DNA of 64,000 nt, from NCBI GenBank assembly GCA_949289305.1, contig CASENB010000023.1:1-64000 (forward strand), given 5' to 3'. Source of the stretch: an uncultured Spirochaetales bacterium. Its GTDB lineage: Bacteria > Spirochaetota > Spirochaetia > Sphaerochaetales > Sphaerochaetaceae. Both the position numbers and the translations under genes were made by a program. Shown here piece by piece: positions 347-62,663 of the stretch (positions within the stretch are counted from its first letter, which is position 1; each line of letters opens with the position of its first letter). Below the pieces are notes generated by a model that did no database searches, was not told where the DNA came from, and saw nothing but the letters and a program-made list of their open reading frames with translations.

Positions 347-1723
347 ATGTCTGATCTTTCTAAGGCGCGAAAGATGGATATGCTAAATGGCCCTATAGCC
401 TCGAAGCTTATCGCATTTGCCTTGCCTCTTGCAGCAAGTAGCATACTGCAACAACTTTTCAATGCGGTTGACGTTGCTGTCGTTGGCCACTTCGCATTAA
501 ATCAAGCAGAAGCAACTGCAGCTGTCGGTTGCAACGGACCTGTAATCAATCTTATAGTCAATCTCTTTGTAGGGGTTTCTGTAGGGGCTAATGTAGTTGT
601 TTCGGGATATATCGGAAATCAGAATAAAGATGGTGCGAATAGGGCAGTACACACAGCCATGTCCATAGCTTTAATTTCAGGAATCGCACTTCTTTTCGTT
701 GGACTATTAGTATCGCGCCCTATTCTCGAACTGATGGATACTCCTCCTGAAGTTCTTCCTGATGCTGTAGAGTATCTTAGAATTTATTCTCTAGGCATGC
801 CTGTTATAATGATCTACAATTTCGGATCTGCAATATTAAGATGCATAGGAGATACGAAAAGGCCTCTTTACTGTTTAACGGTCTCTGGAGTGATTAATGC
901 AATCCTCAATATGATTTTCGTTGTTGTCTTCCATCTTGATGTAGCTGGAGTTGCGATTGCAACAGTCATATCGAATGTAATCAGCGCCTCACTCGTCATT
1001 ATCTTTTTAATACGTGAAAAGAGCGAGATCCATCTCGATATTCATAAGCTTAAAGTGTGTAAGACAGATTTGCTAAGAATAATGAAGATTGGTCTTCCTG
1101 CAGGGCTTCAGTCAATGGTCTTTTCAATATCTAACGTAATCATACAGAGTGTGCTTAACAGCTTTGGAACGGATGCTGTAGCAGGATCTGCCGTCGCTCT
1201 TAACTATGAAAACTTTACGTATTTTGCCGTCTCTGCATTCTGCCAAACCACAGTTACATTTACAAGCCAGAACTTTGGAGCAGGAAACTATAAGAGATGC
1301 AATAAGATTTTCAGGCTGTGTTTTGTCTTTGCAATTATATCTGCAATAGCCATGGGCTGGATCTTTATATTTGGAAGAAGCTTATTCGTATCTATTTTTA
1401 CTAGAGATTCTGGAGTTGCCGAGTACGCATATACAAGGATGATAATAGTTCTTTCTCTCTATTTCATACTATGCACATACGAAGTGGGGGGATCTGCGCT
1501 AAGAGGGCTAGGATACTCAATGACTCCAGCCGTGCTTACAGTATTTGGAACATGCATCTTCCGTCTTTTCTGGGTATGGGTTATCTGTGATATCTGGCCG
1601 AGCTATGACGTCCTTCTTTTAGTCTATCCTATATCTTGGATAATAACAGGAACGGCAGTACTTTCGGTCTATTTTATTTTAAGAGGCAAAGCATATAAGC
1701 GTCTTATAAAGAAACAAGCATGA
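347..1723 (+). CDS. MATE family efflux transporter
   Basis: The 458-residue protein is a polytopic membrane protein of the usual MATE length, with about 12 hydrophobic segments. The N-terminal stretch (GPIASKLIAFALPLAASSI, then LFNAVDVAVVGHF) is the typical MATE opening, and the second half repeats the fold around residues 240-290. Members of the family export drugs or metabolites in exchange for Na+ or H+; the substrate here cannot be read from sequence. The ATG is chosen because a strong AGGAGGG lies just upstream. The gene stands alone, with about 250 bp before xylulokinase. A second, only distantly similar MATE gene lies at 25590-26969 on the other strand. Confidence 0.9.
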   Translation: MSDLSKARKMDMLNGPIASKLIAFALPLAASSILQQLFNAVDVAVVGHFALNQAEATAAVGCNGPVINLIVNLFVGVSVGANVVVSGYIGNQNKDGANRAVHTAMSIALISGIALLFVGLLVSRPILELMDTPPEVLPDAVEYLRIYSLGMPVIMIYNFGSAILRCIGDTKRPLYCLTVSGVINAILNMIFVVVFHLDVAGVAIATVISNVISASLVIIFLIREKSEIHLDIHKLKVCKTDLLRIMKIGLPAGLQSMVFSISNVIIQSVLNSFGTDAVAGSAVALNYENFTYFAVSAFCQTTVTFTSQNFGAGNYKRCNKIFRLCFVFAIISAIAMGWIFIFGRSLFVSIFTRDSGVAEYAYTRMIIVLSLYFILCTYEVGGSALRGLGYSMTPAVLTVFGTCIFRLFWVWVICDIWPSYDVLLLVYPISWIITGTAVLSVYFILRGKAYKRLIKKQA

Positions 1724-1847
1724 ATTTAGATTGAGTGAGTAGAACTACGGCTTCAAAGCATACCTATTTTGAAGAAATATGTCATTTTAAATCAAAAAGC
1801 TAATGATTGAATTAAGAAAGATATGGAGTTCTGATACCTGCAACGTC

Positions 1848-1879
1848 AACACTTGCTTCTTAAACAAGATTTAAGTGTT
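1848..1879. promoter_or_regulatory. inverted repeat upstream of xylB
   Basis: AACACTT at 1848-1854 is repeated in inverse as AAGTGTT at 1873-1879, with CTTG and CAAG inside. It lies about 95 bp before the xylulokinase start. It could be an operator for the sugar genes or a weak end-of-transcript hairpin for the MATE gene; the sequence does not decide. Confidence 0.3.
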
Positions 1880-1971
1880 TGCATTATACTTTTTTTCACT
1901 AATCGTTAAAAAAAGATTTAAAATAAAATTGATTTTGAATTTGCATGCTACTCTTTTTTAAGGAGAAAAAC

Positions 1972-3480
1972 GTGAATCTATATTTAGGTGTTGATCTTGG
2001 AACTTCAGCTGTGAAAGTAATCTTGGTCTCAAGTGACGGTGCAGTACTTAATACAGTCACAAAGGAGTATGAGCTTTATTTCCCTCATCCAGGGTGGGCA
2101 GAGGAAAACCCGGATGACTGGTGGAATATGACAAAAAAGGGGATTAAAGAAGTAATCCAAGGCTTTAACGGCGATGATATCAGAGCTCTTGCCGTAGCAG
2201 GACAGATGCATGGCCTGGTTACGCTTGATGAAAACGATAACGTGATCAGGCCTGCAATCCTTTGGAATGATGGAAGGTGCGATAGAGAAACGGACTATCT
2301 TAATAATGTCATCGGAAAAGAATTCCTGTCCAGGCATTCTGCCAATATCGCATTCGCAGGCTTCACCCTTCCTAAGATTCTCTGGATGAGGAATAACGAA
2401 AGAGAAGCATTTGAAAAGATAAAGAAGATCATGCTCCCAAAAGATTATATAAACTATAAGTTGACGGGAGAGTTTGTAACGGACTATTCCGATGCATCTG
2501 GTATGCTTTTGCTTGATGTTGAGAACAAGAAATGGTCTGATGAGATGATAGAAATAGCAGTCATCGACAAAAACATGCTGGCATCTCTTCATGAAAGCTA
2601 TGATTCAATTGGAAAGATAAAGAAGGAGATTGCAGATGAATTAGGCTTAGCAGAGGATGTGCTAGTTGCTGCCGGGGCGGGAGACAATGCTGCAGCTGCA
2701 ATCGGCACTGCGACTGTCGGAAATGGCAGATGCAATATAAGCCTTGGCACAAGCGGAACAATATTCATCTCCTCAAAGAACTTTAACATTGATAAGTACA
2801 ATGCGCTGCACAGCTTTGCTCACGCGGATGGAAATTACCATTTGATGGGATGCATGCTCTCTGCAGGGTCTGCTAGCAGATGGTGGATGCTTGATATCCT
2901 TGGCACTCATGATTATCCGGCTGAAGAAGATTTAATAAAAGAAGAGAAGCTTGGGCGTAACAAAGTGTTCTTCCTTCCATATATTATGGGGGAACGCAGT
3001 CCGATAAATGATACCGATGCTCGCGCCACATTTACCGGCATAAGCATGGATACAAGCAAAGCTGATTTGACGCAGAGCGTGCTTGAAGGTGTCGCTTTTG
3101 CCTTCCGCGACAGCTTTGAGGTTGCCAAGTCGCTTGGCATCGATATAAAAAAGAGCACAGTATGCGGCGGAGGAAGCAGGAGTCCGCTCTGGCGCAAGAT
3201 CATAGCAAATGTTCTTGGAATTCCGCTTGAGATTCTTGAAACAGAACAGGGCCCGGGATATGGTGCCTGCATTCTTGCAATGGTTGCCGATGGCATATAT
3301 GAATCGGTTGAAGAAGCATCTAGAAAGCTTGTTAAGATTAAGAAGACTGAATATCCAGATGTTGAGCTCGCAAAATTATACGATGAGAGGTATGCGGAGT
3401 TTAAAGAGATCTATCCGGCTATGAAAGGCCTGTTTAAGAAACTTGGAGGAAAGCAAGGCAAAAATAAAGGGCGTCTTTGA
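1972..3480 (+). CDS. xylB: xylulokinase
   Basis: This FGGY-family kinase phosphorylates D-xylulose (or a related ketose) with ATP, feeding the pentose phosphate pathway. The N-terminal phosphate-binding loop reads YLGVDLGTSAVKVIL. The substrate region has GQMHGLV followed by AILWNDGR, both typical of XylB. The second domain carries NISLGTSGT and a C-terminal GGGSRSPLW adenosine motif. I choose the GTG at 1972 because AAGGAG sits about six bases before it; an in-frame ATG at 1945 would place that Shine-Dalgarno inside the coding region. The protein is then 502 residues, a normal family length. The fucose-isomerase-family gene follows 165 bp downstream on the same strand, which suggests one catabolic unit. 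Confidence 0.9.
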   Translation: MNLYLGVDLGTSAVKVILVSSDGAVLNTVTKEYELYFPHPGWAEENPDDWWNMTKKGIKEVIQGFNGDDIRALAVAGQMHGLVTLDENDNVIRPAILWNDGRCDRETDYLNNVIGKEFLSRHSANIAFAGFTLPKILWMRNNEREAFEKIKKIMLPKDYINYKLTGEFVTDYSDASGMLLLDVENKKWSDEMIEIAVIDKNMLASLHESYDSIGKIKKEIADELGLAEDVLVAAGAGDNAAAAIGTATVGNGRCNISLGTSGTIFISSKNFNIDKYNALHSFAHADGNYHLMGCMLSAGSASRWWMLDILGTHDYPAEEDLIKEEKLGRNKVFFLPYIMGERSPINDTDARATFTGISMDTSKADLTQSVLEGVAFAFRDSFEVAKSLGIDIKKSTVCGGGSRSPLWRKIIANVLGIPLEILETEQGPGYGACILAMVADGIYESVEEASRKLVKIKKTEYPDVELAKLYDERYAEFKEIYPAMKGLFKKLGGKQGKNKGRL

Positions 3481-20420: not shown

Positions 20421-20947
20421 ATGAAGAAAAAACTACTAGTTGCAATTACAGCATTGTTGGCTTTAATTGCTATTGTGTCATGCGATATGGGGGGGGTGCA
20501 GAAATAGTTAACTACGAAGTTCCTCAATGGTTGATTGATTATGGAACTGTATACGCCACAAATACAATGAATGACACAAGGAATGGCGCAATAGAAGGTC
20601 AAATGTATTTCGTTGGCATAAGTTCAACTAGAAATTGCATTGAACTGATATACAAAATTAAAGGAAACGGACCCGATGCTTCATCTGATAAAGAAGTCAG
20701 ATATAAGCAGGAAGACGTTCCAAGGATGATTAATCCTTCCTATTCCGGTTTTCCTATTGTAATAAAAAATGAAAATATACATGCCGTAGAGATATGGGTA
20801 GAGACCGTCAATGGGCTAGGGCCTGCAATGCTTGAGATTAGTGAATACGAAAGTGTAAAAGGATTGAAATTTTATTTTGATCCATCAAACAATCCACTTA
20901 ATAGCAGTGAAACAGAATACGGCTTCAGATACTTACCTATACAATAA
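20421..20947 (+). CDS. putative lipoprotein split by a G8 tract (out of frame as sequenced)
   Basis: The ATG at 20421 follows AAGGAG and opens a typical lipoprotein signal, with a hydrophobic stretch ending in the lipobox IVSC (Cys at residue 21). Five bases later is a run of eight G (20489-20496). As sequenced, the frame reaches TAG at 20505, giving only 28 residues. The rest of the protein (about 150 residues from NYEVPQWLIDYGT to the stop at 20947) lies in another frame; adding one G or removing two restores a 175-residue lipoprotein. I recognise no domain in the body. The beta-barrel gene starts two bases after the stop. The alternatives are a phase-variable gene in its OFF state or a homopolymer sequencing error. 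Confidence 0.7.
20489..20496 (+). repeat. homopolymer G8 tract, candidate phase-variation switch
   Basis: Eight consecutive G residues directly after the lipobox Cys codon of the lipoprotein gene. The count sets the reading frame: nine would be ON, eight is OFF. Runs of this length in G or C are rare in this AT-rich window. Confidence 0.7.
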
Positions 20948-52668: not shown

Positions 52669-54306
52669 ATGAAAACTAAAATAAAAGGTTCTGTTGTTAT
52701 AGCAATTATTGCTATATTGCTTGTTGCAATAGTTGGATGTAATCCTGATTCTACCCCCCCCCATCACTTTCCAATAGAAGATTCTCAAACAATAAAAGAA
52801 CTATTGGTTCCTATTTTGGTTGAAACAGGGGTAAATAGGGTAGTTGTAGAAGATTATCTTGTTGATTTAGATGGAAATACTGTTCGAAATTGGTCATCTG
52901 AATATTCTGTTGGTGAAGGTGTAACTAATATTGAACATGATCTTAAATTCTTTGGTAAGCATATTCTAGACATTTCTTATTATAATAATTCCTCTTTAGT
53001 AGATACTAGAGGCGAAGAAGTTATAAGTACTTCGGATTCTTATAATGTTGCTCCAATGATTGCAACTGTTCCTGCGCTATATTTTACTTTGTTAGATCTG
53101 GATGAAGATTATAATATGCCTTATTTTGATTCGTCAATTCCGACTATCATAATGCTTGAAAGACAAGATGCTTATAATTGGGATGAACTTCCTTCAAATA
53201 TGATGGCATGTCCTTTCTTGTCTGACGATGAAATACAAAATGGAACAGGCGGAGATGCAGGAAGTTTTGATAACACTTTCTGGGAATATATAGATTATCT
53301 ATATAAGTTGAATCCTTCCTCGAAATTTAATTTTTATGGAAATGATTACTGGCAGGGGCAGATGTATGATCTCTTAGATTTGCATATACCTTTAGATCAA
53401 TTAAAGTTTGTTTTCTTCTCTGATGGCAGTGGAACATATTCTGCCTTTAGATCTATATATGGCGATGGAAGCGGAACTGATAACTCTCTTTCTAAATATA
53501 ATGAGCTTAAGGCAAATTGGGATACAATAAAAGATTTGTACAACAAAAATGATGATTCGTATCGGGATTTGTTAGGTTCTGACTTTATGAACGCAAGAGG
53601 ATATCTTTCAGTTTTAGTCAATGATGAGACAGATATTGATGCATATTGGATTGTGCGAATTAAAAGTGAAAATAATTTCGGTTCTTCAGACGTTTATACA
53701 AATTATATTGCACAAAATGAGAGAGTTATTGGTTTGGACATGAATAATCTTTTTAATGATTTATCTGATAGCGAAAAGGAGACATTTAAGAAGTTATATT
53801 CTATTGACACATCCCTTATCGAAAATACAGATAAGCCAATTTTAATATTCTTAGGAACTTCAACTGATAGTGAAAGTAATTTAAGAGAATATCTTATTGC
53901 TACAAAAGCTTTTTTTGAAGAGCAATATGATTGCTACTACAAAGGACATCCCGGACATGTAAATAATAATCCAGAAAATAGGAATGAAACTTTGGAAGAA
54001 CTTGGAGTGAAAGTACTCGATGCAGCAATTCCTGCTGAACTATTTTCATTCTATTTTGATGATGTTGTATATGCCGGTTATCCATCTTCTACACTACAAA
54101 ATGTAAATAATCCATGCGTATTTCTTACTTTTGTTGGCACAAAGACGAATGAAGTTTATATGAATCGGGTAGAATCATATCTAGAAAAATTAGGAGAAGG
54201 AAATTTCCGTATTGTAAAAGATTATTTGACAGAGAATCCTCAATATGCAATGTGGAACGGAAGCGACGATATCTCAACATTAAACTGGCAACCATATCAG
54301 GAGTGA
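52669..54306 (+). CDS. GT80-like sialyltransferase lipoprotein with a C9 tract
   Basis: The 545-residue protein has a lipoprotein signal ending in lipobox AIVGC (Cys24). The body resembles bacterial GT80 sialyltransferases. Motif 1 is SDG at residues 251-253 (the family has D/E-D-G), preceded by PTIIMLERQD near 158. Motif 2 is KGHPG at 425-429 (the HP motif), and motif 3 is PSST at 472-475 (the SS motif). The motif spacings are 175 and 46 residues, close to those I recall for Pasteurella PmST1. Some Photobacterium sialyltransferases are also lipoproteins. CMP-sialic acid (or a Kdo-like donor) would be the expected donor. A C9 tract lies 13 bases after the Cys codon; the frame is intact with nine. 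AGGAGG precedes the ATG. Likely a phase-variable surface modifier. Confidence 0.75.
   Translation: MKTKIKGSVVIAIIAILLVAIVGCNPDSTPPHHFPIEDSQTIKELLVPILVETGVNRVVVEDYLVDLDGNTVRNWSSEYSVGEGVTNIEHDLKFFGKHILDISYYNNSSLVDTRGEEVISTSDSYNVAPMIATVPALYFTLLDLDEDYNMPYFDSSIPTIIMLERQDAYNWDELPSNMMACPFLSDDEIQNGTGGDAGSFDNTFWEYIDYLYKLNPSSKFNFYGNDYWQGQMYDLLDLHIPLDQLKFVFFSDGSGTYSAFRSIYGDGSGTDNSLSKYNELKANWDTIKDLYNKNDDSYRDLLGSDFMNARGYLSVLVNDETDIDAYWIVRIKSENNFGSSDVYTNYIAQNERVIGLDMNNLFNDLSDSEKETFKKLYSIDTSLIENTDKPILIFLGTSTDSESNLREYLIATKAFFEEQYDCYYKGHPGHVNNNPENRNETLEELGVKVLDAAIPAELFSFYFDDVVYAGYPSSTLQNVNNPCVFLTFVGTKTNEVYMNRVESYLEKLGEGNFRIVKDYLTENPQYAMWNGSDDISTLNWQPYQE
52754..52762 (+). repeat. homopolymer C9 tract, candidate phase-variation switch
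   Basis: Nine consecutive C residues sit within codons for T-P-P just after the lipobox Cys of the sialyltransferase-like gene. With eight C the frame meets TAG within about six codons. The tract is in the same position relative to the lipobox as the G8 tract at 20489. Confidence 0.7.
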
Positions 54307-54340: not shown

Positions 54341-54390
54341 GAGGCTGTAGAGTTCTTTTGCATGGACTATGCAGCCTCTTTCCCTTCTTA
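54341..54390 (+). terminator. terminator-like hairpin between lipoprotein and sugar transferase genes
   Basis: GAGGCTG at 54341-54347 pairs with CAGCCTC at 54372-54378, followed by TTTCCCTTCTT. The loop is long (about 24 bases) and the T run is interrupted. The left arm also contains GGCTGTAG, loosely like the ops element of RfaH-regulated operons. Confidence 0.35.
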
Positions 54391-54463: not shown

Positions 54464-55072
54464 TTGTTTTATCATGTTGCAAAGCGCTTATTTGATTTTA
54501 TATTTGCTTTGATTCTTTCAATTGTCATGCTTCCTTTTTTTATTTTAATAGCCATTATTATTAAATTGGATTCTAAGGGGCCTGTATTTTTCATACATAA
54601 TAGGGTAGGAAAAGGAGGAAAGCCACTTCCTCTTTTTAAGTTCAGAACCATGTGTGATGATGCTGAAGGCATGATAAAAAATTTCAGCAGTGATCAGCAG
54701 AAAGAATGGCAGGAAAATTTTAAGTTAAAGGATGATCCAAGAGTAACAAAAGTTGGAAAGTTTTTAAGAAAGACAAGTTTAGATGAACTACCGCAACTTT
54801 ATAATATTTTGATTGGTCAATTAAGTTTTGTAGGTCCAAGACCTGTTACAAAAGAAGAATTAGAAAAATTCGCATTGGGGGAGGCAGAAAAAGTTTTATC
54901 TGTCACTCCAGGCCTTACAGGTTGGTGGGCATGTAATGGAAGAAGCAATATAGATTACGATGAAAGAGTAAAGCTTGAATTGTATTATGTTGACCATGCT
55001 TCGATTTTACTTGATTTAAAGATAATTCTAAAAACTATATTAATTGTATTTTCTCGTGAAGGAGCTATTTAA
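54464..55072 (+). CDS. initiating sugar transferase (undecaprenyl-phosphate phosphosugar transferase)
   Basis: The 202-residue protein is a short (single-domain) bacterial sugar transferase: an N-terminal membrane hairpin (LFDFIFALILSIVMLPFFILIAI), KLDSKGPVFFIHNRVG, LFKFRTMCDDAE, then RKTSLDELPQLYNIL and FVGPRPVTKEEL. These are the WcaJ/PglC/RfbP-type motifs. It transfers a phosphosugar to undecaprenyl phosphate and so starts a surface polysaccharide chain. The start is a TTG with AGGGGAG eight bases upstream. The next glycosyltransferase gene starts on the next base. Confidence 0.9.
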   Translation: MFYHVAKRLFDFIFALILSIVMLPFFILIAIIIKLDSKGPVFFIHNRVGKGGKPLPLFKFRTMCDDAEGMIKNFSSDQQKEWQENFKLKDDPRVTKVGKFLRKTSLDELPQLYNILIGQLSFVGPRPVTKEELEKFALGEAEKVLSVTPGLTGWWACNGRSNIDYDERVKLELYYVDHASILLDLKIILKTILIVFSREGAI

Positions 55073-56215
55073 ATGAAAATTGCAATAGTTCAAGAGTGGA
55101 TGGTATCTATTGGTGGATCGGAAAAGGTCGTTTATGATATTCACAAAATTTTTCCTGATGCGCCAATTTATACGCTTGTATATGATAAGAAAAATGGGCC
55201 TTCATGGGTGAAGGATTTAGATATTAGAACAACAAAAGTACAAAAGATACCTTTTGCTACAAAAATATATAAAAATCTTTTAACCTTTATGCCCAAAGCA
55301 TGGGAAGCTTTAGATCTTACCGAGTTTGATTTGATTATTAGTAGTAATCATAGTTTTGATAAATGTATAATAACTAGACCAGACGCTTTACATATATGTT
55401 ATTGCCATTCTCCTATCAGATATGTGTGGGATTTGTACCATGAATATATGAGAGGGGCTGGCTTCTTAAAACGATTAGTATTTAAACATTCTGTGTCTAA
55501 ACTAAGAATAATAGATTATGTTTCTGCTCAAAGAGTAGATTATTTTGTTGCTAATTCTTATAACATCGCAAATCGTATACGTAAATTTTACAAGAGAGAG
55601 GCTGATGTTATATATCCTGGCTGTCCAATAAATAAATTTGATGTAATGGATAATGAAGGTGATTATTATCTTATCGTTTCAAGATTTGTTTATTATAAAA
55701 GAATAGATCTAGCAATAGAGGCTTGTAATAGATTAGGAAAGAAACTTGTTATTGTTGGAAAAGGTGGCGAAGAAAAGAAACTCAAGAAGATAGCAGGAAA
55801 TACAATAGAATTCAAAGGTTTTTGTTCTGACGATGAATTAGAACAAATTTATTTAAACGCAAAGGCTTTTCTATTTCCTGGAGATGAAGATTTTGGTATT
55901 ACTCCTGTTGAAGCACAAAGTGCAGGGCTTCCTGTACTTGCTTATGGGAAGGGAGGGGCTCTAGAGACCGTATTAGATGGGAAAACAGGAATGTTTTTTT
56001 CTGAGCAGTCGGTTGAAAGTTTAGTTGAATGTATTGAAAGATTTGAAAAGGAAGGAGTGGAATATAGTAAAAAACAAATAAGAAAGCATAGTATGATTTT
56101 TTCAGAAGAAAGATTTTCTAGAGAGTTCCAAGCGTATGTTTTTAATAAACTTGAAGAGTTTCATAAAAGTCTAAAATATTATAAAGAAGATAATTCCGGA
56201 ATTCTGTTTAAATGA
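55073..56215 (+). CDS. family 4 glycosyltransferase
   Basis: The 380-residue protein is a GT-B fold transferase of CAZy family GT4. The N-terminal domain starts MKIAIVQEWMVSIGGSEKVVY. The C-terminal domain has LIVSRFVYYKRIDLAIEAC and the nucleotide-sugar motif FPGDEDFGITPVEAQSAGLP, typical of the WbaZ-like mannosyltransferase group. The donor and linkage are unknown. It begins directly after the sugar transferase stop. As the second gene of the cluster it probably adds the second sugar to the lipid-linked chain. Confidence 0.85.
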   Translation: MKIAIVQEWMVSIGGSEKVVYDIHKIFPDAPIYTLVYDKKNGPSWVKDLDIRTTKVQKIPFATKIYKNLLTFMPKAWEALDLTEFDLIISSNHSFDKCIITRPDALHICYCHSPIRYVWDLYHEYMRGAGFLKRLVFKHSVSKLRIIDYVSAQRVDYFVANSYNIANRIRKFYKREADVIYPGCPINKFDVMDNEGDYYLIVSRFVYYKRIDLAIEACNRLGKKLVIVGKGGEEKKLKKIAGNTIEFKGFCSDDELEQIYLNAKAFLFPGDEDFGITPVEAQSAGLPVLAYGKGGALETVLDGKTGMFFSEQSVESLVECIERFEKEGVEYSKKQIRKHSMIFSEERFSREFQAYVFNKLEEFHKSLKYYKEDNSGILFK

Positions 56216-56283
56216 TAATTGGGAGTATTTTATAGATATAATAACTCTTAAATGCAAGTATCATAATTGGTGATAGCTAAGAT

Positions 56284-57342
56284 ATGAAAAATAATAAGAT
56301 AAAAATCGCTATTGTTGTAAATAACTATGGAGAAGCTTATGATGGAGTTGGGGCATATTCAAAAGTTATTGCTTCTAATTTTTCTGATAACATTGATATA
56401 AATGTATTTACAGCTAAATGTTTCGGAAATGCTTCTATTCTAAAAAAGTTTTTTTCATTTGAGATGTCTAAGGAGTTTTATTTGGTATCAAGATCTATTA
56501 AACAGTATGATACTGTACTAATTGAGTATCCTTTTGTAGAATGGAATCCTCTAATAATTGTTTTATTTCGCATATTATGCATTAAGGCTCATCGGCTAAA
56601 TAAAAGGATTATCTTATCTCTTCATGAATATACAAGAGTTAATAAACTTCGAAAAATTGTTATAAGAAGTATGGTGAAGAAGGCTGATTTAATTTTAGTT
56701 AGTGATGAAACATTTAGAAAAGCTTTGTTAAAGTATTCTTCGAATATTATGGTTCGCAATATACCAACTAATATATATTCCAGAAATTTTAAAGAAAAAG
56801 AGAAAAGTACTAATAATTATGTATTTTTTGGTCTTATTAATGGTGCGAAGGCTTTTGATTCAATGATCGATGGTTGGAAATTGTTTAATAGAAATGGAAA
56901 GTTTAAATTGTATATTATTTCGGCAACGAAAATAGATGAATCTCAAATTAGAGATTTTGAATTAAGTAATATTTCTTATATATATAAAGCAGAAGAAGAC
57001 AAAATTATGGAGATTATGCAGTCTTGTGCTTTTTGTATTTTGCCAATAAAACCAAATATTGATAATAAAAATGCGACATTCAAAACAGCTTCATTAGCGG
57101 GGTGTATATGTATTGGCAAATTTTCTGAAGAATTTAAAGATCTAAGCTTTACAATAAATATGGATTCTTATAAGACGGAAGAATTTAAATTAGCGTTATG
57201 CGCAACTAGAAAACTAAATGAGCAGGAATTAAAAGATGAATTCTATAAAGCAAGAGAATTTGGTAAAAATTTCACTCCTCACATAATAGCAGAAACAATT
57301 GAGAGTTGTATTAAAGAAGAGATTAATATCGGGAGAAAATAA
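56284..57342 (+). CDS. glycosyltransferase (GT-B fold)
   Basis: The 352-residue protein begins IKIAIVVNNYGEAYDGVGAYSKVIA, a GT4-type N-terminus with the donor-side glycine motif. The C-terminal half is divergent: it contains IMEIMQSCAFCILPIKP and TFKTASLAGCICIGKF, the weaker version of the usual E-x-x-x-x-G-x-P signature. It is AT-rich like its neighbours. Its stop codon overlaps the next gene by one base (TAATG). The acceptor and donor are unknown. Confidence 0.7.
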   Translation: MKNNKIKIAIVVNNYGEAYDGVGAYSKVIASNFSDNIDINVFTAKCFGNASILKKFFSFEMSKEFYLVSRSIKQYDTVLIEYPFVEWNPLIIVLFRILCIKAHRLNKRIILSLHEYTRVNKLRKIVIRSMVKKADLILVSDETFRKALLKYSSNIMVRNIPTNIYSRNFKEKEKSTNNYVFFGLINGAKAFDSMIDGWKLFNRNGKFKLYIISATKIDESQIRDFELSNISYIYKAEEDKIMEIMQSCAFCILPIKPNIDNKNATFKTASLAGCICIGKFSEEFKDLSFTINMDSYKTEEFKLALCATRKLNEQELKDEFYKAREFGKNFTPHIIAETIESCIKEEINIGRK

Positions 57343-58454
57343 TGATTATTGGTATTGATGCAAGACCTTTAGTTGAAAAGAAAACAGGATTTGGGTACTT
57401 TTTGTCAAACATGTTAAAAGAGCTCCTTAAGATTGATTCTATTAATACGTATTATTTGTTTTCAGATAGAGCGATTCATTTTAATGAAAATAATTATACA
57501 AATGTTCATAAGATACTTTATCAAGATTCTTTTTATTGTCCTAAAACTTTTTATTTTTACTATAAACTTGCAAGGACAATTAAGGAAATTGGAATTCAAC
57601 TTGATGTGTTTTGGGGAACTGAACACATTATGCCTAGAGGCTTCAGCAAGAATGTAAAGTGTATTTTAACTATTCATGATTTTACGCATATTCTTTTTCC
57701 TAAATCTACAACAAAATATAATTTATTAATAACTAAGCTGTTATATAAGAAGTCAATACGAAATGCGGATACAATAATATGTATTTCAAATAATACAAAA
57801 GCTCAATTAAAACAGTTTTATGCAAAAGAAATAAAAGATAAAGATGTTTTAATGATTTATGAGGGAGGCTTCCCGAGTGATCAGAAAAAAACGAAAAATG
57901 ATTATTCTAATTTACGTCGTGAAGTTGAAGAATTGAGTAATGACTGTTTTCTATTGTTTATAGGAACTATTGAACCAAGAAAAAATATTTCACTTTTAAT
58001 TGAAGCTGCAACGAAACTAAAGATACATAATATTAAAATTGTGATCTGCGGTAAAATTGGATGGGAAAAAAAGAGTATTGTTGAGAAATTATACTCAACA
58101 GAGAATTTAATATATTTAGATTATGTCTCAGATTCAGAGAAAGATTTTTTGATGACTAATGCCTTTTGTCAGGTTCAGCCATCTTTATATGAAGGGTTTG
58201 GACTTCCTATAATTGAAAGTATGCAACGAGGAACGGTTGTGCTAGTTGCAGATAATTCATCAATGAAAGAATTGGTTGAGGTTGATTATTTGAAATTTGA
58301 AACAGAAAACTCTGATGATTTTTGCAAGAAAGTATTGCTTTTATACAATAATAAGAATTTATATTCACTTGCAAAAAAATACTGTTTAAATAGAGCAATT
58401 CAGTTTAATTGGGAAGAAGCAGCAAAGCAATATTTGGATTGTTTTAATAAATGA
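57342..58454 (+). CDS. family 4 glycosyltransferase
   Basis: The 370-residue protein is a clear GT4 enzyme: MIIGIDARPLVEKKTGFGYF at the N-terminus, LLFIGTIEPRKNISLLIEA at the domain start, and the donor motif VQPSLYEGFGLPIIESMQRG near residue 290. GT4 enzymes transfer mannose, glucose or other sugars with retention. The start shares a base with the stop of the preceding gene. It ends the plus-strand run; the following genes are on the opposite strand and meet at a hairpin. Confidence 0.9.
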   Translation: MIIGIDARPLVEKKTGFGYFLSNMLKELLKIDSINTYYLFSDRAIHFNENNYTNVHKILYQDSFYCPKTFYFYYKLARTIKEIGIQLDVFWGTEHIMPRGFSKNVKCILTIHDFTHILFPKSTTKYNLLITKLLYKKSIRNADTIICISNNTKAQLKQFYAKEIKDKDVLMIYEGGFPSDQKKTKNDYSNLRREVEELSNDCFLLFIGTIEPRKNISLLIEAATKLKIHNIKIVICGKIGWEKKSIVEKLYSTENLIYLDYVSDSEKDFLMTNAFCQVQPSLYEGFGLPIIESMQRGTVVLVADNSSMKELVEVDYLKFETENSDDFCKKVLLLYNNKNLYSLAKKYCLNRAIQFNWEEAAKQYLDCFNK

Positions 58455-58476
58455 AAAGTAAATTTCCTGTTAGTCT

Positions 58477-58505
58477 AAAATGAGGGCAAGTATTTCATTA
58501 CCCTC
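58477..58505 (-). terminator. hairpin at the convergent end of the glycosyltransferase genes
   Basis: GAGGG at 58482-58486 pairs with CCCTC at 58501-58505. On the minus strand it is followed by ATTTT and overlaps the GT2 stop codon at 58498-58500. The stem is short (5 bp), so it is a weak terminator at best. Confidence 0.4.
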
Positions 58506-59478
58506 TGAATGAATATATCTTTAATATTAAGTAGCTTATAAATGATGGAAGCATAATAGAATATTTTACTAATTTCCCTTTTATGTCTGAAATGGAACAA
58601 TTTAATCTTTTCATTGCTGTTTTGAATTTTTTTGATATATATTTGTATTCTTTATAGTTTTCATGATTAAATTTTTGGAAAGAGATTCCCTTTAACGCAA
58701 AATAATATGGACTTTCTAAGCCACTAAAAATCGCTGTATTAACATTTTTTATATTCTCTTTTTCAATTTTTATTTCAAAATCTTTTTCTAAAACCTTAAT
58801 ACAATCTTTATATTTGGATTTATAAACAGATGCCGTTATGCTTTGGCCTGCTCTATTTATTCTGTATATGTATAAAGGTAGGTTTGTATAAAAAAAAGAT
58901 TTTGCTTTTGCTATTCCTGATATTGAAATTAAACCATCTGTATATAATGTATGATCAGGACATACGCATTTATCCAATAACTCTTTTTTAAATGCAAAAT
59001 GATGTAAAAATAAATCTTTCATCAAAGCTGATTTTAAATCATTTAAAAAGCCGTATTTTTCAGATGTTTCGTTATATGTACCTATTTCTTTTTTTATTTC
59101 ATCATCAAATTTAATACAATCATTAATAAAGACGTCTGCGTTATTGGATGCAAGAATATCTAGGTATGATGAGAATGTTTTTTTATTAAAAAAATCATCA
59201 GAATCTAGCATTTTTAAATACTTTCCAGTTGCTAATGTTTTTCCCAAATTAAAACATGACCCATATCCTCCGTTTGTTTTATCTATGACTTTAAAAATAG
59301 AAGGGTGTTTAGTCTCATATTTTCTTGCAATTTCTAGAGAAGAATCGGTAGAGCCATCATTGATAATAATGGCTTCATATAGATCTGCCTTTTCTGGAAT
59401 AATTACAGAATTTATACATTCATCGATATATTTTTCCATATTATACATTGGAATTATTAATGATAATAGTTTTTGCAT
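58498..59478 (-). CDS. family 2 glycosyltransferase
   Basis: The 326-residue protein is a GT-A fold family 2 enzyme: LSLIIPMYNMEKYIDECINSV at the N-terminus, IIINDGSTDSSLEIARKY, then KMLDSDDFF with the metal-binding DxD. A C-terminal helical and basic region follows (residues about 230-326). The minus-strand orientation is opposite to the earlier glycosyltransferases, so it belongs to a separate transcript with the flippase and polymerase genes. Sugar specificity is unknown. Confidence 0.9.
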   Translation of the reverse strand: MQKLLSLIIPMYNMEKYIDECINSVIIPEKADLYEAIIINDGSTDSSLEIARKYETKHPSIFKVIDKTNGGYGSCFNLGKTLATGKYLKMLDSDDFFNKKTFSSYLDILASNNADVFINDCIKFDDEIKKEIGTYNETSEKYGFLNDLKSALMKDLFLHHFAFKKELLDKCVCPDHTLYTDGLISISGIAKAKSFFYTNLPLYIYRINRAGQSITASVYKSKYKDCIKVLEKDFEIKIEKENIKNVNTAIFSGLESPYYFALKGISFQKFNHENYKEYKYISKKFKTAMKRLNCSISDIKGKLVKYSIMLPSFISYLILKIYSFRG

Positions 59479-59563
59479 GTTTCTCCCTCTTTTTTCATTG
59501 TTAGTTCATATGATACAACATATAACCCAAATAATTAATTCATTAAAATTGGCAAAATATGAT

Positions 59564-61012
59564 TTATTGTCTTTTACGTTTTTTTATCATTAATATTACT
59601 TTTTCTTTAAGCAATATGGCTAAAAATAAATATAAAGCAAAGAATATAATTGCAGAAATGATAAGCTGAATAAATTCATTATCAAAAGATGTGACAGAAT
59701 AGGTAATTACAGTTGCTATTATTGTTGATAGGGTTATTTTTAGAAAATTCGCTATAGGAAAAAGATGGATTTTTAATTTGTAGAGAAATAAATATTGTAT
59801 TATAAGCACTACTAATTCTGTAATCATTGTTGCAATTGCAGCCCCTAAAGCGCCAAATCGAGGTATAAAAATAGCATTCATTATTATATCTATGATTGCA
59901 CCTCCTAAAGTTGATATAAATACATATATTTCTTTGTTTATAGGTAAGAATAATTGAATCCCTATTACATTAGTGAGACCTATAAAAACAATTGCCGGCA
60001 TTAATATCTGCATTACAGGTATTGCTTCTAAGAAGTTCTCACCAGAAATGATCAGAATCATATTTTTTGCCTCAATAATGCAAAATACAGAAACGGGAAT
60101 CGCAAAAAACAGATTAAAATTAAATGTATTTTTTATTAAGTTTAGAAATTCATCTTTTTTATTCTGTTCTAAAAGATAAGTAGAACGAGGAAGTAATACA
60201 GATGAAATTACTGTAATGATACCGACTAGAAGATTCTTTATTTTTATAGCAGTCGAATAATAACCAATTTCTTTACTATTAGAAAAGAATCCTATCATAA
60301 CTGTCGCTAATGAATTATATATAGTTGTGGTTGCTGAGAAGGCAAAAAGAATAAATACTGGTTTTAAATGGCGCTTTATATTGCATTTTACGGCAGAACG
60401 TAAAGAAATAAATTTATGTAGACGAATAATGTTAAAAATATTCGATCCTACAGAACCTATAATTACGACAAAGCCATATTGCAATACATCTGTAGAATTT
60501 CGTACTAGAATAAACATTAAAACTAGTGATACAAGTTTTCCAAGTACACTGCGTATTGTAATATAGTCATATTGTTCAATTGCTTGGTAAAACCATTCAG
60601 CACCAAATACAGTTAGAGCGATTTGAATGGAAACAATCCATAGGAGAGTTTTTTCTTTTGAAAATTCGTTAATGTATAGGGTCGCAATTAGCAAAAGAAA
60701 ATAAGAAACAGCCATTGCGATTGTATTTAAGATCAATAATTCCTTAACTGTTGTTGCTAATTGAATTTTATCATCTCGTACCTTTGAACACGCTTTTATT
60801 CCATATAATGGAATTCCAAGCATTGCAAGCATTGTAAATATATCGATTGTAGATTGAGCAAAAGATACCCTGCCAATACCTTCCGGCATCAAAATTCTAG
60901 ACACGTAAGGGATTGTAATTAAGGGAAACAGCAGCTGAGAGGCTTTTAATATAAAACCCATCACCACATTATATATATTGGAATGTATTTTATAAGCTGT
61001 ATTATTGCCCAT
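59564..61012 (-). CDS. oligosaccharide flippase (Wzx-like, PST family)
   Basis: The 482-residue protein has about 12-14 membrane segments and the polysaccharide-transport signature (LLFPLITIPYVSRILMPEGIGRVSFAQS near residue 25). It also has MIGFFSNSKEIGYYSTAIKI and FGALGAAIATMITELV, typical of MVF/PST flippases. It moves undecaprenyl-linked repeat units across the inner membrane for outer assembly. It is in the same minus-strand run as the GT2 and the polymerase. It ends in a basic cytoplasmic tail. Confidence 0.9.
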   Translation of the reverse strand: MGNNTAYKIHSNIYNVVMGFILKASQLLFPLITIPYVSRILMPEGIGRVSFAQSTIDIFTMLAMLGIPLYGIKACSKVRDDKIQLATTVKELLILNTIAMAVSYFLLLIATLYINEFSKEKTLLWIVSIQIALTVFGAEWFYQAIEQYDYITIRSVLGKLVSLVLMFILVRNSTDVLQYGFVVIIGSVGSNIFNIIRLHKFISLRSAVKCNIKRHLKPVFILFAFSATTTIYNSLATVMIGFFSNSKEIGYYSTAIKIKNLLVGIITVISSVLLPRSTYLLEQNKKDEFLNLIKNTFNFNLFFAIPVSVFCIIEAKNMILIISGENFLEAIPVMQILMPAIVFIGLTNVIGIQLFLPINKEIYVFISTLGGAIIDIIMNAIFIPRFGALGAAIATMITELVVLIIQYLFLYKLKIHLFPIANFLKITLSTIIATVITYSVTSFDNEFIQLIISAIIFFALYLFLAILLKEKVILMIKKRKRQ

Positions 61013-61040
61013 AGTCTCGATATTATTCTTTTATTAAATG

Positions 61041-62663
61041 TTATTCAACAAAAAGGTTTGTGTTCGTTTTGTGCTGCATGGATTTTTCTGATCTGATATT
61101 CATAAAGTCGGTAAAAGCAATGCAGAAAATGACAATATAAATATAGTTTGTCATCCATAAATTTGATAAACCAAAGGCAATGATTAATGCGCATGTAGTT
61201 AAAATAAAACATGAGCTATTTTTGTTTATTGTCTTGTTATAAGCCAAAAAATTTATAGACAAAAATAAAGATACAATAATAAAAGGCATTGTGTTTATAA
61301 GAAATCCAAGTATGCCAGAATAAGCTAATGTATATGTATATTCATTTAATCCTGGGCTTATATTTGTAAAAGGGCCTTCTTCTTGTTGTGTTTGTTCCCA
61401 TATATTTACTTCCATGTTATTTGCTGTATATTCAGGAAAATTATTTATTAGATGCGTTCCAACAAGATCTTTACCTGCGCCTAATAATGGATATTTCTTG
61501 AATACTTCTAATTCTGCTTCTATCATACCATAACGTGAATTGTTGCTTCTTTCGTTTAGTTTTGTTAAAGAATTAATATTAGTATTAAAAAAATCAGAAA
61601 AAGTTGTTTTGCCTGACTTGTTCTCATATGTATTAACGTTTGGCGCTATATTTATAAATATAATCGCACAGCTTAAAGCTATTATTGTAACTAATATGAT
61701 AATACCAATTTTAATTAATGTATCTTTATTTATATTCCTATATAAATTCAGAATAAAGAAAACAACAAGGCCTCCAAATACAAGCATTGTTCCTGTTCTT
61801 GAATTTGATGAGAATATTATGAATGAAAGTAGAAAGTATTCAATAATAGAAGAGATTTTATTTTCATTATAAAAACCATAAAGCAATATGATTAAAGAAC
61901 AAGTCCCCCAATAAGAGAGATAGCTTGGCTCAGGGAAAATTGATCTTATATTTATCGGTAATTCTGGCGGCCACCATCCATGCGCATTTGCAACATTATA
62001 GATTGAATTAAATACTTTTTTTATAATCACATCTGCTTTTGTAATATCCATGAAATAGGCAATTTCTATTATTTCAAATATCAAAATATATGCAACTGAT
62101 ATGGATGTTGAAAGCCATATATAATGCATATAATCTATCTGAGAATGTTTACAGAATATGTAAAAAGAAAATACCATTAAATATGTAGTCATAAAAAAAG
62201 TTGTTAGAGAGACTATTTGTCTGAATGTTGAAGAAATGGCAAAAGCAGTAAAATTAGAGATGCTAGGGGATATCGTTTTGGTAATGTTAAATAAAAAAAG
62301 ATTTGATCCTTTTAATAAAGAGTAATCAGCACTTTCTAAATATGGTGAAACAATTAATCCATGAATATATAAAATTATGTTTAAAGACAGATAAATGGCA
62401 AAAAATATTAGTATTGGTTTATATTCTTTCAGCCTTTTCTGTTTTACTTCCTCAATAAATAAAATGATTACAAAGGCTAGAAAGAAATACATTGATATAG
62501 CATCTTCATTATGAAGAATTATTTTTAAATATGAAGGAAGGCACTCTCCAAGTTTCGTATCATCAAAAGGCAAAAACAAAACACCTAGAAAAAAGAATAT
62601 AAAACATATTTTATAAATTGGATTTGTTAATTGGCTTATTTTACAAGTGCTTTGAGAATCCAT
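61041..62663 (-). CDS. O-antigen polymerase/ligase-like membrane protein (Wzy candidate)
   Basis: The 540-residue protein has about 12 membrane segments and one large extracytoplasmic loop near residues 335-445. That loop contains NSRYGMIEAELEVFKKYPLLGAGKDL; the GAGxxL pattern within the loop is typical of the O-antigen ligase/polymerase superfamily. FSSNSRTGTMLVF near residue 290 is also typical. It probably polymerises repeat units (Wzy) or ligates them. It is the first minus-strand gene of the group and lies 28 bp before the flippase. The upstream region is decayed. Confidence 0.75.
   Translation of the reverse strand: MDSQSTCKISQLTNPIYKICFIFFFLGVLFLPFDDTKLGECLPSYLKIILHNEDAISMYFFLAFVIILFIEEVKQKRLKEYKPILIFFAIYLSLNIILYIHGLIVSPYLESADYSLLKGSNLFLFNITKTISPSISNFTAFAISSTFRQIVSLTTFFMTTYLMVFSFYIFCKHSQIDYMHYIWLSTSISVAYILIFEIIEIAYFMDITKADVIIKKVFNSIYNVANAHGWWPPELPINIRSIFPEPSYLSYWGTCSLIILLYGFYNENKISSIIEYFLLSFIIFSSNSRTGTMLVFGGLVVFFILNLYRNINKDTLIKIGIIILVTIIALSCAIIFINIAPNVNTYENKSGKTTFSDFFNTNINSLTKLNERSNNSRYGMIEAELEVFKKYPLLGAGKDLVGTHLINNFPEYTANNMEVNIWEQTQQEEGPFTNISPGLNEYTYTLAYSGILGFLINTMPFIIVSLFLSINFLAYNKTINKNSSCFILTTCALIIAFGLSNLWMTNYIYIVIFCIAFTDFMNIRSEKSMQHKTNTNLFVE

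Follow-up and report, generated by a model that had tools for sequence, protein, structure and literature searches.

GT80 enzymes are the work-horses for the synthesis of sialylated glycans. In Photobacterium the alpha-2,6-sialyltransferases of this family carry a lipoprotein-type signal peptide that ends before Cys16, and why some GT80 proteins should be exported as lipoproteins, when the donor is produced in the cytosol, has to our knowledge no explanation. Homopolymeric-tract switching of surface glycan enzymes, to which the gene described here can be likened, occurs in the lipooligosaccharide glycosyltransferases of Campylobacter and Neisseria; those phase-variable enzymes are cytoplasmic, use an endogenous donor and are not exported lipoproteins. 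The D/E-D/E-G motif has a role in catalysis (PMC2169525, PMC5517516), and the spacing between motifs is shorter in the GT38 family than in GT80 (PMC2169525). Among spirochaetes, the Treponema pallidum outer-membrane proteins tprL and TP0126 undergo poly-G phase variation with promoter tracts of about 9 (PMC7864442). In our literature searches, no GT80 study on spirochaetes came up, nor any account of phase variation in Sphaerochaeta.

The gene under study is located at 52669–54306 of the window, which is the whole 64,000-nucleotide stretch analysed, in the genome of a gut-type spirochaete (2.27 Mb, 30 contigs, 86% complete). It lies on the forward strand, as do all of its features given below. 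The open reading frame and the structural model describe a GT80-fold lipoprotein of 545 amino acids with a signal peptide, an Ig-like N-terminal domain and a GT-B fold. The fold, the Ig-like domain and the motif order are shared with the Photobacterium alpha-2,6-sialyltransferases (ST0160/Pd2,6ST, 4r83; JT-ISH-224, 2z4t), whereas the protein is only about 13–16% identical to them, has Ser for the first Asp of DDG and carries a C9 tract past the lipobox; moreover, no CMP-sialate pathway was found in its genome, and its relatives are paired with an outer-membrane beta-barrel. The Pasteurella enzyme PmST1/PM0188 (PF11477) has the same fold (Z about 23–26) and the same active-site motifs, but its structures lack the Ig-like domain and the alignment begins at model residue 122. 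The GT38 polysialyltransferase (5wcn, 5wc6) has the D/E-D/E-G and HP motifs and the CMP-binding logic in common (PMC5517516), while its Z of 12.6 falls below GT80. As with tprL and TP0126, a spirochaetal homopolymer tract accompanies a surface protein, but here the tract stands in the reading frame past the lipobox.

Fold, predicted export and distribution of the encoded protein

The lipoprotein signal peptide (52669–52740) ends in the lipobox I21-V22-G23-C24, with Cys24 encoded at 52738–52740, and the model places a hydrophobic helix at residues 8–22. The C9 tract (52754–52762) occupies codons 29–32 (aCC CCC CCC Cat = T-P-P-H), five residues past the lipobox Cys, and is followed by the Ig-like beta domain (about residues 41–120; 52789–53028), which is seen in the model strands and the structural alignment as in the Photobacterium enzymes. 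The sequence-only reading of this DNA had placed the reading frame, Cys24, the tract, SDG (251–253), KGHP (425–428) and PSS (472–474) correctly; its "nine C residues" are exactly nine C bases, to be read as nucleotides and not as cysteines. Signal peptide, lipobox and Cys were thus found in the sequence, with the hydrophobic helix in the model, and all nine close members within the window's bacterial family have the Cys, in agreement with the lipid anchor proposed earlier. The protein is very probably lipid-anchored.

Searches with the single sequence gave no significant Pfam or PDB (phmmer) match and no close relatives in the genome contigs, and alignment-based searches were needed to find homologs. 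An AlphaFold2 model built from 12 sequences (pLDDT 82, pTM 0.80) replaced an earlier one (pLDDT 74, weak near motif 3). The best 16 Foldseek matches of the model were all GT80 (E 3e-13 to 7e-9), and VIA gave Z 20.4–26.8 for every GT80 crystal structure listed, against at most 12.9 for the best other family, which bears out at the structure level the GT80 match that had been suggested from the letters. The structural alignment with JT-ISH-224 (2z4t) joined window residues 34–539 to 31–514, including the N-terminal Ig-like domain. Sequence profiles pointed the same way: PDB sequences compared with the homolog profile yielded GT80 sialyltransferases (E 0.006), the 12-member profile matched Photobacterium sialyltransferase 0160 (ST0160; E 8e-4), and profile-profile comparison with GT80 by hhalign gave a probability of 93.6% and an E of 2e-7. 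An HMM search against GT80, proposed earlier as a check, had a divided outcome, as the window protein itself remained below the Pfam model PM0188 (PF11477), while a congeneric homolog (L005, 33% identical) scored 27 bits against a cut-off of 25. In a phylogenetic tree, a single branch separated the spirochaetal and actinobacterial proteins from the three reference GT80 enzymes. Taken at the level of fold and family relationship, the assignment to GT80 is very likely.

Homologs with 32–37% identity were present in six other genomes of the genus, further ones occurred in the same bacterial family, and the overall identity within the close family was about 28–37%. A phylum-wide search revealed members in 14 of the 393 sampled genomes of Spirochaetota. 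A scan of genome collections found members in MAGs labelled Spirochaetaceae, Spirochaetales and Sphaerochaetaceae, and the same scan found one in a MAG labelled Propionibacteriaceae. The latter (L083:5236-7377) is a secreted-looking GT80-like protein of 713 amino acids with no lipobox, with KGHP and with S-T-T; either horizontal transfer or a wider family could account for it. Most distant members have lipobox-type starts; one that does not is that of genome G287, where a cytoplasmic-looking GT80-like gene adjoins an IspD-like cytidylyltransferase gene (L088:676-1389 and 1393-3009). This neighbour is a hint that a non-sialic donor, CDP- or CMP-activated, may serve some members.

Directly upstream of the gene, the remaining complete loci from the window's bacterial family carry a gene for a small protein of the outer-membrane beta-barrel type. 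When compared with PF13505, one partner (L009) scored above the cut-off and another (L024) below it, and most others were recognized by family similarity, that of L023 being weak. In genome G011 a G8 tract close to where the signal peptide ends divides the partner gene between two reading frames. The window locus has no beta-barrel neighbour, and the rest of its assembly gave weak matches only, with no clear copy. The partner gene is a hint that the GT80-like lipoprotein may act at the outer membrane.

Active site and sugar donor

The active-site residues were located by alignment with three solved GT80 enzymes (ST0160, JT-ISH-224 and P. dagmatis), in which the ST0160 sequence corresponded to PDB 4r83 over an unbroken identical alignment. 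Asp252 falls on the position of the catalytic Asp, His427-Pro428 on the HP motif, Glu457 on the equivalent of the ribose Glu (MhPST E323 is the ribose-binding Glu; PMC5517516) and Ser473-Ser474 on the S-S motif, and the last three placements were backed by sequence-profile comparison too. In genomic terms, motif 1 (S251-D252-G253, with Asp252-Gly253 at 53422–53427) matches the catalytic base motif DDG, motif 2 (K425-G426-H427-P428; 53941–53952) the CMP phosphate and leaving-group site, Glu457 lies at 54037–54039, and motif 3 (P472-S473-S474-T475; 54082–54093) matches S-S. The HP motif, the ribose-binding Glu and the S-S pair, which make up the CMP site of GT80, were therefore all found by alignment, and the three motifs noticed in the sequence-only reading are in register with the solved enzymes. 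Judged from the alignment and the order of secondary-structure elements, they would share one pocket.

Asp252-Gly253 corresponds to the second Asp and the Gly of DDG, and the first position is Ser, so that the D/E-D/E-G consensus is only partly matched. This substitution, for which the sequence-only reading had asked that activity be tested, is present but not alarming: all close members have Ser or Thr before Asp252, and the first Asp of DDG in PmST1 (D140) is turned toward the protein core, the second Asp being the base (PMC2169525). In a related GT38 enzyme, mutation of the first acidic residue cost 300-fold (PMC5517516). All nine close members have Asp252, His427 and Glu457 and retain motif 3. 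Even distant members share the KxHP motif and the Glu without exception, whereas in some of these the catalytic Asp-Gly has been altered or lost (NDM in G405b, HAG in G451). Two ORFs of about 1800–2000 amino acids on a single contig of genome G032 (C17, L026 and L031) have long repetitive N-terminal parts and a GT80-like domain that lacks the HP motif; the fold may here be put to a non-catalytic use. Some members may thus be non-catalytic, given the loss of Asp-Gly in distant members and the HP-less domains of G032. For the window protein itself, catalysis is somewhat more probable than not.

NeuB and a CMP-sugar synthetase (PF02348) were not found in the window genome or in ten related genomes, while most control genomes were positive. 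Candidates were considered and rejected: matches to PF03102 occurred in 9 of the 11 genomes, and those read were DAHP synthases, fused to prephenate dehydratase in the window genome, and weak CTP_transf_3 matches in the relatives proved, where read, to be MobA-like NTP transferases. Three relatives that are 94–97% complete (G020, G028 and G136) agree with the window genome on the absence of donor genes. Distant gene-carrying spirochaetes gave strong PF02348 matches in six of seven genomes, possibly KdsB or NeuA, and G287, the seventh genome, gave only the IspD-like match. In genome G483 (L102, L109, L113), 14 matches to PF02348 were observed, along with G11–G12 tracts in the flanking sequence. 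The search for neuA and neuB that had been suggested together with a sialyl donor went against that donor, as the matches read in the window genome and the related gene-carrying genomes were only the DAHP synthases and MobA-like proteins. With neither gene found in the window genome or its relatives, the nearly complete ones included, a cytosolic CMP-sialate donor for the exported protein is unlikely, and so is sialic acid from own synthesis.

The apparently missing donor pathway gives room to a reading in which the protein is a GT80-fold lipoprotein without catalysis, namely a surface binding protein or variable antigen with a nucleotide or glycan cleft, switched for immune or phage escape. 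The predicted exported location would suit such a protein, as would the failure to find donor biosynthesis genes in the window genome and ten relatives, the loss of the catalytic Asp in some relatives, the degenerate GT80-like domains in the giant surface proteins of G032 and the tracts carried by other lipoproteins of the window genome. Retention of Asp252, His427, Glu457 and motif 3 at about 28–37% identity is, however, hard to explain without catalysis or nucleotide binding, and we regard this alternative as possible but rather less probable than an active enzyme.

The polysaccharide cluster and the C9 tract

A polysaccharide cluster begins downstream, with a sugar transferase, GT4, GT2, a flippase and a Wzy-like gene annotated at 54464–62663, and runs to about contig position 97 kb with six further G/C tracts. 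Between the two lies a terminator-like hairpin (54341–54378, forward strand) with –25.1 kcal/mol for the folded stretch, a z of –3.6 and a weak U tail; a consensus terminator scan did not have it among its listed terminators. The annotated neighbours of the homologs were a GT4, a GT28-type protein, an MMPL transporter and an acyl-CoA synthetase-like protein, and not Wzy/Wzx clusters. The sequence-only reading had the protein as a membrane-attached sialyl- or related transferase that alters the surface glycan under control of the tract; spelled out, this would be a sialyl- or nonulosonate transferase that decorates the polysaccharide of this cluster. GT80 membership, the adjacent cluster and the richness of that cluster in tracts speak for this model, but searches of the window genome and ten relatives found no NeuB or CMP-sugar synthetase apart from DAHP synthase and MobA-like matches; the exported protein would have no cytosolic donor, the hairpin separates the gene from the cluster, and those neighbours of the homologs that were annotated do not form such clusters. 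The model is unlikely, the functional tie to the cluster being weak, and adjacency alone should not be read as proof of function.

The C9 tract was evaluated for its predicted effect on the product. With 7, 8, 10 or 11 C in the tract, the product would be 50, 35, 51 or 36 amino acids long, respectively, compared with 545 at C9, so that any change in length that is not a multiple of 3 is predicted to truncate the protein to 35–51 amino acids. In about 100 kb of the contig, C/G runs of 4, 5, 6 and 7 were present 143, 27, 4 and 0 times, and runs of 8, 9 and 10 were present 3, 4 and 1 times. The eight runs of at least 8, against about 0.19 expected (P 4e-11), depart far from a geometric spectrum; C9 thus has one feature of tract-mediated phase-variable genes, a homopolymer in the reading frame that is long and above expectation. 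The whole assembly contains 16 G/C tracts of at least 8 bases, and when the C9 of the GT80-like gene is left out, 6 of 15 fall within the following 42 kb of polysaccharide genes (P 2e-7). These cluster tracts, 8–10 in length, are located at contig (C23) positions 64157, 67328, 73981, 78219, 90205 and 96883, in genes for FrhB-like proteins, a GT2, an acyltransferase and an O-antigen-ligase-like protein. At least two interrupt genes: the tract at 73981 splits an FrhB-like gene between two frames, and the O-antigen-ligase-like gene terminates right past its own tract at 96883. Tracts of this type were present in all 48 genomes of the genus.

Elsewhere in the window, a small lipoprotein gene (20422–20947) carries a G8 tract (20489) about three residues past the lipobox Cys, with the remainder in another frame; it looks OFF in this assembly, or else reflects a homopolymer error. 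The G-strand flanks of the 16 tracts of the window genome (e.g. L045, L047, L049, L057, L060, L064 and L073) follow the pattern AT-G8..10-T[AG], with T at +1 in 15 of 16 (P 5e-6) and A or G at +2 in all 16, and the same flanks were seen at intergenic tracts and in some congeners. In genome G483, a 12-base G/C tract (L089:965-976) lies about 355 nt upstream of the GT80-like gene.

A tract at the site equivalent to C9 was absent from all eight nearest full-length homologs. The distant homolog of G451 has a G15 from nt +88, compared with C9 from nt +86 in the window gene, both five residues past the lipobox Cys, and the two tracts fall on separate branches of the tree. An ancestral origin of C9 was rejected on these observations, and the two tracts are probably of separate origin, since in the tree the nearest neighbours of either gene carry no tract there. 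Screening the family of G451 for further tract-bearing members yielded four gene carriers in 200 genomes, too few for statistics. Recurrence at equivalent places is the best indirect evidence that tract length matters, though it concerns few loci. An inert C9, or one produced by faulty assembly, with constant production of the protein is very unlikely. In favour of this view, the linker around the tract is poorly conserved and permissive to many residues, and no homolog of the same family has a tract at this site; against it stand the run-length spectrum, the non-random genomic placement of tracts, the G15 of G451 and the genes broken into two frames at other tracts (e.g. window 20489 and C23:73981). 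Switching by tract length, as the sequence-only reading had supposed, is likely in view of the genome-wide set of tracts and the tracts at equivalent places in homologous loci. With tract lengths read from one assembly, expression of the GT80-like lipoprotein is likely to be switched by C9.

Proposed activity and meaning for the family

The best reading of the locus, to which we give an even chance, is a phase-variable, surface-anchored transferase or remodelling enzyme of the GT80 family with putative activity. By fold, motifs and homology, the protein is a member of a spirochaetal GT80 branch, predicted to be exported and lipid-anchored. Slipped-strand changes of C9 would yield the full lipoprotein at in-frame lengths and a stub of 35–51 residues at others. 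In the ON state the protein would face outward from a membrane; the outer membrane is the probable one, as a beta-barrel gene of outer-membrane type directly precedes the genes of its relatives. There it may bind a cytidine nucleotide via the K-x-H-P, Glu and S-S sites, and with Asp252 as the base, a sugar could be transferred or remodelled on surface or host glycans.

The donor would then come from outside, as the cell is apparently unable to make CMP-sialic acid, CMP-legionaminate or CMP-Kdo. Known GT80 enzymes have sialidase and trans-sialidase activity mainly via reverse sialylation (PMC10795189), by which an extracellular enzyme could work without donor synthesis if CMP is available, and such CMP-dependent reverse sialylation is one conceivable route here. 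In its most specific form, a phase-variable surface GT80, mostly with a beta-barrel partner, would serve as a spirochaetal CMP-dependent trans-sialidase that moves sialic acid from glycans of the host or of neighbours to surface glycans, with no need for the cell to synthesize CMP-sialate itself; we consider this improbable.

In this genus, G/C tracts appear to switch genes for surface lipoproteins and polysaccharides. The spirochaetal branch sharpens the puzzle of GT80 export, since the donor pathway is seemingly missing and the CMP site is kept. With it one could test directly whether exported GT80 proteins act via reverse or exchange reactions, use exogenous donors or are non-enzymatic.
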